Shown here one piece after another: positions 30,132 to 33,729 of a stretch of DNA of 64,000 nucleotides. Position 1 is the first letter of the stretch. Each line of letters opens with the position of its first letter. The position numbers were made by a program, and so were the translations under genes. Below the pieces are notes generated by a model that was given only the letters and a program-made list of their open reading frames with translations, made no database searches and was not told the DNA's origin. This DNA comes from Thermosynechococcus sp. CL-1 (GTDB lineage Bacteria; Cyanobacteriota; Cyanobacteriia; Thermosynechococcales; Thermosynechococcaceae). The stretch is taken from contig NZ_CP040671.1 in NCBI RefSeq assembly GCF_008386235.1, forward strand, positions 2,172,001 to 2,236,000, read 5' to 3'.

Positions 30132-31694
30132 TTAACGATGCACCAAAGGGCGTTCCTCAAGAGGCGCAGACAAGGCCTCCGCCAAGGGGGCACAGCCAAA
30201 GCGCTCCTCCAGTAGATCCATGACGGTGCGGCCAAAGTCATTGGGATTGAGGCGCCAAGCCGCAAGGCACACTTCCCCAAAGACGGATCCCATCGGTTCG
30301 GGGTTCCAAAGCAATTTCTTAGCAGTCCAAGGCATGAGGCTCATGGGGTTGTAGCCGGGGCGCAGAATGCCGCGCTCGAGGGCATATGCCTCAAGGTGGG
30401 TATGGGGTTGCAGGCCAATAAAGAAAATGGCTGGCTCAACGTTATCTGCACCAAAAATGCGTTCCAGTTCGCGGTGGTAGGCAATGGTCTGGGCAATCGT
30501 TTCAGGGCGTTCGTCAATGACATTGAAGGAGTAATTCACAGAAACGAGGGCGTTGAACCCGGCGGCTTTCAAATCACGACAGTTTTGCAGCACCGTTCGC
30601 AGGTTGTAGCCCATGCGCATTTTCCGCACCAGTTCTTGGGAGCCACTGGTAATGCCGATTTCAAAGTAGTTCATCCCCGTTTGCACCATTAGCTCAGACA
30701 ATTCGGGGGTGAGGTTGTCGGCACGGATGTAGGCTGCCCAGTGAATATCCTTCATGCCTGCTTTCAGGATTTCCCGCAGCAGGGCGATCGCGTCGGGGAT
30801 AAATTTGCGAGCGGGGATAAACTGGGCATCGGTAAACCAAAAGTTGCGCACACCGCGATCGTAGAGCTGGCGCATTTCGGCGACGACTTCTTCAGCAGGG
30901 TTAATGCGCACCTGTTTGCCTTCAACCACGGTATAGACGCAGTAGCAGCAGTTGTGGGGACAGCCGCGCTTGGTTTGCACCCCAATATAAAAGTCGCCCC
31001 CCTGAAGGTAATACTCAAATTCTGGCCAAATCGTCTCGATGTAGTCGTAGTTGCAGGCGGTTTTTTCGATGGGGGTTGGCCATTCGTGGATGAGGCGATC
31101 GCGGGGCTTTTCCACACCCGCAATGTAGCAACGCTCCCCGGCAATTGGCTGGCTCGTTAGGACTTTGTGCAGCAGCGTTTCCCCTTCACCAACGGAAACA
31201 ATGGTGCCTTTGGGCAGTTGAGAACCCAATTGTTCATAAAAGACACTGACCGCACCGCCACCGACGATGGTTGTGACTTGCGGATGGTGACGCTTGGCAT
31301 GGTGGCGTCCCAAACGGATTAAATTGAGGTTTCGCCAGAGTTCACCATAGTAGGCACTCATCACCCGCAGACCCCCGATCGCCCCCCGCAGCTTCACCAA
31401 GGGATTGCGGGCGTAATAGACCTCAAAGGCATGTTGCAGTGGATTGCCCCCCCGTCCCCCCACAGGGGCATAGATTTGAATATCCCGCCAAGAAAAAACA
31501 AGATGCGTGGGTTCAAAGTCATCAATCACTTGGGCAAGAGCACGGCGAAAATCAAGGGGGGGCACCGTTCCCAAATCAAAAATGCGTTGTTCAACACTGG
31601 GTAATTGCTTATGGATATAATCCGCAAGATAGACGACACCAATGGGAAAAATGGGATTGCAGGGGAGACGGACGTAGAGGACACGCGGGGACAT
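30132..31694 (-). CDS. B12-binding domain radical SAM protein
   Basis: The product is 520 aa. The N-terminal half has a cobalamin-binding-like fold (about 1-200, with TTIVGGGAVS and SVGEGETLLHK). The radical SAM cluster motif is C245-x3-C249-x2-C252 (RGCPHNCCYC). The rest is a TIM-barrel-type core (YFEIGITSGS) and a C-terminal extension. It resembles BchE/P-methylase-type enzymes, but the substrate is unknown. It is divergent from the DUF1830 gene across a 213-base region that holds the NtcA box. Confidence 0.82.
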   Translation of the reverse strand: MSPRVLYVRLPCNPIFPIGVVYLADYIHKQLPSVEQRIFDLGTVPPLDFRRALAQVIDDFEPTHLVFSWRDIQIYAPVGGRGGNPLQHAFEVYYARNPLVKLRGAIGGLRVMSAYYGELWRNLNLIRLGRHHAKRHHPQVTTIVGGGAVSVFYEQLGSQLPKGTIVSVGEGETLLHKVLTSQPIAGERCYIAGVEKPRDRLIHEWPTPIEKTACNYDYIETIWPEFEYYLQGGDFYIGVQTKRGCPHNCCYCVYTVVEGKQVRINPAEEVVAEMRQLYDRGVRNFWFTDAQFIPARKFIPDAIALLREILKAGMKDIHWAAYIRADNLTPELSELMVQTGMNYFEIGITSGSQELVRKMRMGYNLRTVLQNCRDLKAAGFNALVSVNYSFNVIDERPETIAQTIAYHRELERIFGADNVEPAIFFIGLQPHTHLEAYALERGILRPGYNPMSLMPWTAKKLLWNPEPMGSVFGEVCLAAWRLNPNDFGRTVMDLLEERFGCAPLAEALSAPLEERPLVHR

Positions 31695-31823
31695 AGGCTA
31701 GCCCAAGATCTATGGAAACGCTAAATTCTTAATAAATCTCTATCGCTGTTTAGGTTGTAACACATTTGCGCCTTTCCAGCAGGGGATCACGGGAACTCAA
31801 GGAAAGGATTAACTGTCCATCCT

Positions 31824-31865
31824 GTAGTTGAGTTTACAACTGGATCGAATTGGCAATGTTAGGCT
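31824..31865 (+). promoter_or_regulatory. NtcA-activated promoter: GTAN8TAC box and -10 element
   Basis: GTA (31824-31826), 8 bases, TAC (31835-31837) fits the NtcA consensus; flanking bases extend it to TGTAN8TACA. Exactly 22 bases after it, TAGGCT at 31860-31865 matches the TAN3T -10 that goes with NtcA-type class II promoters. The DUF1830 start is at 31908, 42 bases further on. No comparable -10 points the other way. Confidence 0.7.
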
Positions 31866-31907
31866 AACAAGGGTAAAGACACGTCCTATAACAAACCATT
31901 ACTTCCT

Positions 31908-32264
31908 ATGCCGCAAATCTTTGATCCTGTCCCTAGCGATAGTTGCGATCGCATCCTCTGCTGTTATGTCAACGCCACCAGCAAAATTCAGGTGGTGCGG
32001 ATTACAAATATTGCCAACTGGTATTTCGAGCGGGTTGTTTTTCCGGGGCAGCGACTGGTATTTGAATCGCCACGGGCAGGACAACTGGAAGTTCACAGCG
32101 GCATGATGGCAAGTGCAATTCTCTCCGACATGATCCCCTGTACGGAGCTACTGGTGCAAGAGGGGAGAGATAATTTTTTTCCCAGTGATCCCGTCAGCCA
32201 GCAACGGCTAGAATTGCTCAATGAGACGCCTGCGCCAGCGACTGAAAAAGTCATGATCCCTTGA
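31908..32264 (+). CDS. DUF1830 family protein
   Basis: The product is 118 aa, soluble. The conserved opening CDRILCCYVNATSKIQVVRI and the FPGQRLVFESP stretch identify DUF1830, a cyanobacterial family with no known function. The upstream NtcA-type promoter suggests nitrogen control. Its stop (TGA 32262-32264) overlaps the TTG start of the reductase gene that follows, so the pair is translationally coupled. Confidence 0.8.
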   Translation: MPQIFDPVPSDSCDRILCCYVNATSKIQVVRITNIANWYFERVVFPGQRLVFESPRAGQLEVHSGMMASAILSDMIPCTELLVQEGRDNFFPSDPVSQQRLELLNETPAPATEKVMIP

Positions 32265-32941
32265 GCCAGCTCCAGCCGATTTCTCGCCCCTACACAATTG
32301 CAGTTTTGGCCAGTAGTTTAGATGGCCGCCTTGCTCGCGCCGATGCTTTGGGTCAGCGCATTGCCTCGGCCTATGACTTTCAGCACCTTGAACAGCAGGT
32401 GGCACAGGTGGATGCCGTACTCTTTGGGGCGACAACATTGCGTTTGGGGGGGACAGCGATGCGCCTTCAGTCTCCCCATCTGATTGCTGAGCGTGAGCAC
32501 CAAGGGCAATCGCCCCAACCGCTGCAAATTGTCTGCTCCGCTAGTGGTGAATTCGATCTCAATCTCCCTTTCTTTCGCCAGCCGATTCACCGTGCCTTAC
32601 TGACCACCGAGAAAGGCGCCAGCCGCTGGCAAGGATCCACTGCCTTTGATCACTGTTGGTCTGCTGGGGTGGCGGAGATTGACTGGCCGCAGGCGTTTAG
32701 GCACATTCAAGGGGCTGGTGTGCAAACCTTGGCCGTGTTGGGAGGAGGACAGCTTTTCGCCTCCCTGTTGCAGATGGCTGCCATTGACGAGTTGTGGTTG
32801 ACCCTCTGCCCCCTCCTCCTAGGGTCGGTAGCGCCTAGCCTCTATCCAGAGGAGATTGCCTTCTCAGGGAGGTTGATGCTCCTGAATGTCTTGCCCGTGG
32901 GCAATGAGGTTTATCTCCACTACCGCCTTAATTATGCTTGA
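32261..32941 (+). CDS. RibD C-terminal-like / dihydrofolate-reductase-fold protein
   Basis: The product is 226 aa, TTG start 32261 overlapping the previous stop. The fold is that of RibD-C (AVLASSLDGRLAR at the N-terminus, VLGGGQLFASLL and ELWLTLCPLLLG later). Such proteins reduce riboflavin or folate pathway intermediates or unknown pteridine substrates; no N-terminal deaminase domain is present, so it is not a complete RibD. Activity must be tested. Confidence 0.8.
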   Translation: MSQLQPISRPYTIAVLASSLDGRLARADALGQRIASAYDFQHLEQQVAQVDAVLFGATTLRLGGTAMRLQSPHLIAEREHQGQSPQPLQIVCSASGEFDLNLPFFRQPIHRALLTTEKGASRWQGSTAFDHCWSAGVAEIDWPQAFRHIQGAGVQTLAVLGGGQLFASLLQMAAIDELWLTLCPLLLGSVAPSLYPEEIAFSGRLMLLNVLPVGNEVYLHYRLNYA

Positions 32942-32985
32942 CTCATTGCGAGTAACCCTCAATCACCACTGAGTCTAATTAGTTC

Positions 32986-33729
32986 TCAGTCAGCACTAAT
33001 CTGCATCTCCAAGGGTGAGGCAAGGATGCAATCACAGTAATTGAGCACTGGTGGCCGATGCCAACCCCACGTAACACCAATGCTGCCCGCTGCACCCCCC
33101 CGCTGTGCCATGAGGCCATCACTATCGGCATCGCCAATAACCACGGTTTGATTGGGTCGCACCCCAAGGCGATCGCACACCCTCAGGAGTACCTGCGGAT
33201 CGGGCTTCGTGGGTGGCTCATCTCCCCCCTGCCAGCATTGGAAAAAGGGCTTCAGGTGATAGGTGTCTAAAAAAGCCTCGATTTCCGACCTGCGATCGCT
33301 AGAGATAATCGCCAACGCGCATCCTCGCCCATGGAGCCGTTGCACGAGTTCAATGACCCCCGGCAGGGGTGGGGTTAACTCTGCTTTAGCAGTAAATTCT
33401 CGCTCTGCGGCAGTAAAGGCGGCATTTGCCTGTTCTAAGGCAGCAATCCAAGGAATTCCCTGTGTGGCCACAAAGGCTGCGGCGGCAATTTGGTTCTCCT
33501 GCCGTGTCCCCACCGCTTGTAATCCAGTGGGATCGAGATGGTCGCCGATCACCCCAAAGGCCTGAAGTAGCAACGCTTTGAGATTGGGAAAGTGTTCAGC
33601 AATTTTCACAGCGCGGGCGATCGCCAGCTCTTTCAAGTACTCAGCAACATCTGCGAGGGTGCCATCCTTATCAAACACCACCGCTGCCACAGGTTCAAAA
33701 GCGTGTCCGCGACAGGAGAGCCGTACCAT
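32986..33729 (-). CDS. HAD-family phosphatase (phosphoglycolate phosphatase-like)
   Basis: The product is 247 aa. HAD motif I is DKDGTLADV (Asp20 nucleophile), motif II IISSDRR, motif III the Lys in PTKPDPQ, and motif IV VIGDADSD. A cap domain lies between I and II. Likely substrates are phosphoglycolate or small sugar phosphates. It is convergent with the RibD-like gene and divergent from the glutamine amidotransferase gene. Confidence 0.9.
   Translation of the reverse strand: MVRLSCRGHAFEPVAAVVFDKDGTLADVAEYLKELAIARAVKIAEHFPNLKALLLQAFGVIGDHLDPTGLQAVGTRQENQIAAAAFVATQGIPWIAALEQANAAFTAAEREFTAKAELTPPLPGVIELVQRLHGRGCALAIISSDRRSEIEAFLDTYHLKPFFQCWQGGDEPPTKPDPQVLLRVCDRLGVRPNQTVVIGDADSDGLMAQRGGAAGSIGVTWGWHRPPVLNYCDCILASPLEMQISAD

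Follow-up and report, generated by a model that had tools for sequence, protein, structure and literature searches.

The locus was analysed in a window of 64,000 nucleotides (the whole stretch of DNA under study) from Thermosynechococcus sp. CL-1. It holds a DUF1830 gene that is preceded by an NtcA-type promoter and flanked by a divergent gene for a radical SAM protein and by a reductase gene. The features are given below, with their basis in brackets; the gene at 31908 is called pirC throughout, and numbers beginning with L, G, C and f are our handles for loci, genomes, contigs and families.

30132-31694, minus strand: gene for the radical SAM protein rSAM_slr0320, divergent neighbour (NF045585, 1031.8 bits)
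31824-31837, plus strand: NtcA box GTAGTTGAGTTTAC, an exact GTAN8TAC (direct reading)
31838-31859, plus strand: spacer of 22 bases ending in TGT, without GGGATC (direct reading and promoter comparison)
31860-31865, plus strand: -10 box TAGGCT (TAN3T), extended by TGT at 31857-31859 (direct reading)
31860-31879, plus strand: genus-conserved block TAGGCTAANNAGGGTAAAGA, covering the -10 and the predicted start (ten of ten genus loci)
31872, plus strand: predicted transcription start (inferred from the class II geometry in PMC3898017)
31908-32264, plus strand: putative pirC/cfrA orthologue, 118 aa, DUF1830 (PF08865, E = 1.3e-33; tree; synteny)
32261-32941, plus strand: gene for a RibD_C-family reductase, its start overlapping the pirC stop (PF01872, E = 6e-26)

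NtcA class II promoters have a gap of 22-23 bases between the box and the -10 element. Direct reading of the plus strand from 31824 to 31908 confirmed the exact GTAN8TAC, the 22-base gap, the TAN3T hexamer and the ATG at 31908, 42 bases past the -10, all of which had been described in an earlier note on this DNA. The class II geometry claimed there was likewise borne out, as the layout agrees with the NtcA-activated class II promoter described in PMC3898017, in which GTAN8TAC stands ∼41.5 bases before the start and the -10 has the form TAN3T. The box is centred at 31830.5, which is 41.5 bases upstream of 31872, the start inferred in that note. A promoter scan of 31000-33000 returned neither a sigma-70-type -35/-10 promoter nor a terminator, no Rfam match was found in the leader region (31600-32400), and the fold of the leader (31872-31920) was not unusual (z = -0.06). 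The stretch AGGGTAAAGA at 31870-31879, around the predicted start, was identical in all ten genus loci and steadier than the spacer. The DUF1830 domain is present at full length in the open reading frame.

Motif counts by themselves do not exclude chance. In the 64-kb window GTAN8TAC occurs six times where 3.48 would be expected, and six or more were counted in 13 of 100 shuffles; in the 2.65-Mb genome the pattern GTAN8TAC-N22/23-TAN3T gave 13 matches, against 26 for the reversed control pattern. Among the genes behind these 13 matches are the window gene, glnA, the gene for ferredoxin-nitrite reductase (nirA) and that for glycogen phosphorylase; others code for a sigma factor of the SigA family, a response regulator of the OmpR type and a fragment of UrtE. 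Another four matches (L047, L051, L052, L053) fall within long open reading frames, and at two (L055, L056) no gene is evident. The UrtE fragment (L046:1096-1500, minus strand, near G000:C1:48150-48596), which has the NtcA class II pattern upstream, matches residues 112-230 only of the 230-residue UrtE model and is perhaps the remnant of a urea transporter gene. The OmpR-type regulator (L058:647-1396, minus strand, near G000:C1:2301726-2302622) starts 147 bases behind the pattern; its best NCBIfam model is RpaB, with a score under the model cut-off, and it may be the nrrA/rre37 counterpart.

The conservation of the promoter was analysed in 120 loci, comprising ten from the genus, 30 from a phylum sample and 80 named records, one of which repeats a genus genome. 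The named records were the best 80 of 528 and are rich in Nostocales; in the phylum, DUF1830 matches were obtained in 138 of 291 genomes. With 20 further loci selected from unicellular and deep lineages the set grew to 140, and removal of seven whose last 110 bases were identical left 133 distinct promoters; loci picked by the composite pattern described below (L139, L197-L228, L264-L269) were excluded from this count. L076 showed no ATG, so its start was assigned by position. From the phylum sample, the upstream stretches compared were those of the 30 loci, the 20 chosen loci, 17 second DUF1830 copies and 11 copies from family f19.

Within the genus, the gene was present in ten of 11 genomes, and the box, the 22-base gap and the -10 were kept in all ten while the spacer varied. 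The record of Thermosynechococcus sp. M46_R2017_013 showed the same promoter, and the eleventh genome (G004, an assembly of 100 contigs) gave neither a DUF1830 match nor the promoter. An exact box was found at -77 to -101 in 119 of the 120 loci, and 104 of the 105 distinct promoters with a box in this set carried TGNTAN3T 22 bases (30 promoters) or 23 bases (74 promoters) past it, the best 80 of 528 named records being part of both counts. Among the 133 distinct upstream regions, the same 80 best records included, an exact box was located at -60 to -130 in 126, and a box with TAN3T at 22 or 23 bases within -260 in 127; dinucleotide shuffles gave means of 1.6 (maximum 7) for the box and 0.37 (maximum 3) for the box with TAN3T, and two control patterns had no match in the 133 promoters. 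Because the promoters are related by descent, the counts cannot be treated as independent observations. The earlier note had given a box lost in close relatives as grounds for refutation; no such loss was seen, the box being retained in every genus orthologue and, with TAN3T, in nearly all of the distinct promoters.

Six of the 133 lacked the box and -10 at 22 or 23 bases: three from f12 genomes with a single mismatch in the box, L151 without an exact box, L124 with the box present and TAN3T absent at that place, and L154. In two f26 genomes the promoter was placed further upstream, at -210 and -220. L154 (G150:C1:2090011-2090855), from a genome of 2.8 Mb, is a pirC copy interrupted by a stop codon and preceded by a broken NtcA box; here, gene and promoter decay together. 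The combination of box and -10 was found before none of the 17 second (paralogous) DUF1830 copies and none of the 11 divergent f19 copies, one of which had a lone box at -62. Its absence before all 17 second copies implies that the conservation follows the pirC-type gene and not the DUF1830 domain.

The radical SAM gene, whose product is named 'photosystem II high light acclimation radical SAM protein' in NCBIfam, is separated from pirC by 213 bases and is divergent to it in 104 of the 120 loci, window included (80 of the loci being the best of 528 named records). In each of the ten genus genomes, the RibD_C reductase gene either overlaps the pirC stop or adjoins it; outside the genus, none of the 120 loci, with their best 80 of 528 named records, showed it beside pirC. 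It is possible that the reductase is an operon partner of pirC and shares its nitrogen-controlled message.

To place the window protein, a tree of 84 DUF1830 domains was used, in which it grouped with all 53 pirC-type rows (SH-aLRT 91), two proteins with glgA downstream among them. The alignment was short and two fast-evolving second copies fell inside the pirC group, so that the tree is moderate evidence. In two of the 120 loci (L031, L033; best 80 of 528 named records included) glgA lies 140 bases downstream, and both have the divergent radical SAM neighbour. Because pirC is reported to stand upstream of glgA1 in Synechocystis (PMC11257934), these two loci link the group to Sll0944, which is described as a DUF1830 protein (PMC6603209) and is the 112-aa protein known as PirC or CfrA (PMC7760959; PMC12077085). 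The short-alignment tree and the neighbours together argue, with moderate strength, for the window gene being orthologous to pirC/cfrA. To name the Synechocystis protein by sequence, a published primer was looked for in one family; it was found in none of 50 genomes. The DUF1830 search of 14 named control genomes gave no match, Synechococcus elongatus included; gene 0891 of that species is set beside Sll0944/DUF1830 in PMC7344720. Among PDB sequences, no relative of the window protein was found at E up to 1.

According to PMC7760959 and PMC12077085, PII holds PirC while 2-oxoglutarate is low, and PirC, once released, inhibits phosphoglycerate mutase, which directs carbon to glycogen. Expression of pirC/cfrA is reported to be NtcA-dependent (PMC12853614), and its function is already known (PMC12077085; PMC11257934). 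The earlier reading thus stands in its NtcA class II layout, through box geometry and conservation, and falls in the idea that a family of unknown function is here tied to nitrogen control, since the function of pirC/cfrA and its NtcA-dependence are already published. A second DUF1830 protein, PirN, had likewise been linked to nitrogen (PMC13205821). The Pfam label DUF1830 lags behind the literature.

PirN of Synechocystis is described as a DUF1830 protein from an NtcA-regulated nitrogen operon that controls the amount of NarB post-transcriptionally (PMC13205821). The other DUF1830 domain of the genome under study is N-terminal in an 807-aa molybdenum reductase of NarB type (L251:3682-6105, minus strand, G000:C1 about 1881681-1884104; also L253-L257 and L261). 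The name NarB was given from family matches, all under the equivalog cut-offs and on a 566-aa piece, and from the place of the gene. The fusion gene closes a cluster begun by nirA (the nirA-narB operon at G000:C1 1.88-1.89 Mb). A gap of seven bases separates it from the preceding gene, which encodes an ABC-transporter ATPase and was taken for nrtD on the grounds of order and composition; the NtcA class II pattern stands before nirA. Among 146 sampled genomes, seven, every one from the family of the window, had an uninterrupted fusion (five Thermosynechococcus genomes, G280 and G391). A further three Thermosynechococcus genomes of this sample had a NarB match without the DUF1830 part and a fourth, G004, had no match to the fusion protein, while G290 and G187 carried both parts in one frame with stop codons between them. 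The fusion is probably PirN-NarB, and it suggests that PirN works directly, by physical contact, on NarB. The window gene, with the radical SAM and reductase genes as its neighbours, is not among the nitrate assimilation genes.

NtcA and the partners of PirC are encoded in the genome. NtcA was recognised by TIGR03697 (397 bits against a cut-off of 244.95), and two PII-family matches scored 111.2 and 59.9 bits. The single iPGAM carries the loop EGEKRKIPGHATDVSLR, which starts with EGE and has K at position 6 and hydrophobic residues at 14 and 16, followed by R. This agrees with the PirC-linked 17-residue loop of cyanobacterial iPGAM as described in PMC12077085.

If the box were a chance match to a loose consensus, the gene would be expressed from another promoter. 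The motif counts, with six boxes against 3.48 expected in the window and fewer full matches in the genome than for the reversed control, could not reject such a match. It was ruled out because of the conservation, the box being kept in all ten genus loci despite a varying spacer, and the box with TAN3T in 127 of 133 distinct promoters (best 80 of 528 named records included) against a shuffle mean of 0.37 and maximum of 3; further, no sigma-70-type site was seen in the scan of 31000-33000. We therefore give a chance match hardly any weight. The radical SAM gene diverges from pirC out of the same intergenic stretch and might itself be served by the box, and CRP-family proteins are able to bind related palindromes. 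Besides NtcA itself, the genome yielded five matches to the NtcA model that are weaker and score under the cut-off, and the CRP-like matches other than NtcA that span at least a full-length DNA-binding part number four, so that another regulator of this family might occupy the site. However, on the pirC side there is little freedom in how far the box stands from the -10 and from pirC, GTAN8TAC is the consensus given for NtcA in PMC3898017, and the box was kept in all 16 of the 120 loci (80 being the best of 528 named records) in which no radical SAM gene was detected upstream. We consider both of these assignments of the box very unlikely.

It is equally improbable that the promoter is driven by NtcA and the protein is not functionally PirC, having for example a PirN-like or genus-specific role. 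Such a role would fit with the presence of DUF1830 in PirN (PMC13205821), with the variable C-terminal tail among orthologues and with the reductase that accompanies the gene in Thermosynechococcus. Against it, the other DUF1830 domain of the genome sits in the nirA-narB operon, which is the place of PirN, the window protein clusters with glgA-linked proteins in the tree, and iPGAM carries the loop. With a probability of about 0.92, we read the site as the NtcA-activated class II promoter of the Thermosynechococcus pirC/cfrA orthologue, for which NtcA binding, the start, induction and PirC activity are predictions from sequence. Under nitrogen shortage, with 2-oxoglutarate rising, NtcA and its co-activator PipX would bind at 31824-31837, and NtcA, as a class II activator, would contact and recruit RNA polymerase at the extended -10 TGTTAGGCT, with transcription beginning near 31872. 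PirC would be synthesised while the same 2-oxoglutarate signal frees it from PII, and the freed protein would inhibit phosphoglycerate mutase and divert newly fixed carbon into glycogen. The amount and the activity of the brake on phosphoglycerate mutase would thereby rise together. In Thermosynechococcus, the message may also take in the RibD_C-family reductase.

Column counts of the 105 promoters from the 120-locus set (best 80 of 528 named records included) showed a further conserved stretch, GGGGATC. GGGATC starts 7 or 8 bases past the box in 81 of the 105, and among 129 placements of box plus TAN3T in the wider set 94 had GGGATC, one had GATCCC and 34 had neither, the best 80 of 528 named records again being included in both counts; examples of the forward orientation are L024, L034 and L140. 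Neither GGGATC nor GATCCC was found in the ten genus loci, window included, all of which belong to the 34 without the element. The composite pattern box-N7/8-GGGATC-N8/9-TAN3T, scanned over 146 class genomes, gave 58 matches in 57 genomes against one control match. The matches were verified by sequence (33 plus six) or by coordinates against DUF1830 matches (19), and 57 of the 58 precede a pirC-type gene, with L216 as the exception. GGGATC is, therefore, not a general part of NtcA promoters. A scan for GATCCC in the spacer with looser gaps resulted in 20 matches in 17 genomes against eight control matches. Seven of these were pirC promoters with a consistent GATCCCCAG, from all six of the sampled f25 genomes and from one f50 genome, and 13 were not at pirC; six of the inverted pirC cases were checked by sequence and the seventh, in G180, is L045. 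The flipped GATCCCC was found in family f25 and in G361 (loci L045, L250 and L270-L274). That the element keeps its position whichever way round it stands suggests recognition by a protein that binds double-stranded DNA.

A tentative interpretation, to which we give slightly less than even odds, is that most of the pirC promoters compared outside Thermosynechococcus carry a second, pirC-specific operator, typically (CT)GGGGATC, through which a further regulator would add an input to the nitrogen signal, and that Thermosynechococcus lost this input. The protein bound to GGGATC is perhaps a repressor that sits where the polymerase binds. It is also possible that GGGATC is conserved for another reason, for example an effect on the polymerase itself. 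No factor for GGGATC was found in the literature searched, nor was a motif for NrrA/Rre37, which was considered as a candidate. The input would perhaps be the repression of PirC at low carbon reported in PMC11257934. In the cyanobacterial papers PMC6603209 and PMC5126843, as far as their text was available, GGGGATC appeared in cloning primers only, and neither the wide footprint of the promoter nor the GGGATC element was found in print in the literature searched, three primary papers aside.

The promoter fronts a gene already known as NtcA-dependent, and the system is not new in kind. What had been a DUF gene under nitrogen control becomes a specific claim, namely NtcA control of the PirC-phosphoglycerate mutase switch. 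As judged from the promoters compared, this control appears to be old and nearly invariant in the sampled cyanobacteria, which include the diazotrophs Nostoc, Anabaena and Crocosphaera. The literature found treats the PirC switch mainly in Synechocystis; the conservation described here reaches far past the genus. The analysis also reveals a second conserved element in the pirC promoter, and the fusion hints at physical cooperation of PirN, the other DUF1830 regulator, with nitrate reductase.

Compared with pirC/cfrA (sll0944) of Synechocystis sp. PCC 6803, by description and synteny, the window gene shares the DUF1830 domain (112 aa there, 118 aa here) and the NtcA-type promoter, and the two groups are linked by the synteny of the divergent gene and of glgA; behind the window gene, however, there is no glgA, and the RibD_C reductase is found instead. 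With the class II promoters of glnA, nirA, urtA and ntcB, as described in PMC3898017, the site has in common GTAN8TAC, a TAN3T at 22 or 23 bases and a box centre 41.5 bases before the start, which is predicted here. Most of the pirC promoters compared add GGGATC in the spacer to this canonical layout, whereas those of Thermosynechococcus do without it. With PirN of Synechocystis, as presented in PMC13205821, the window gene shares DUF1830 and the relation to nitrogen, but PirN lies inside an NtcA-regulated operon with nitrate genes and the window gene outside, and in this genome the DUF1830 domain at the nitrate-operon place is fused to a NarB-type reductase.
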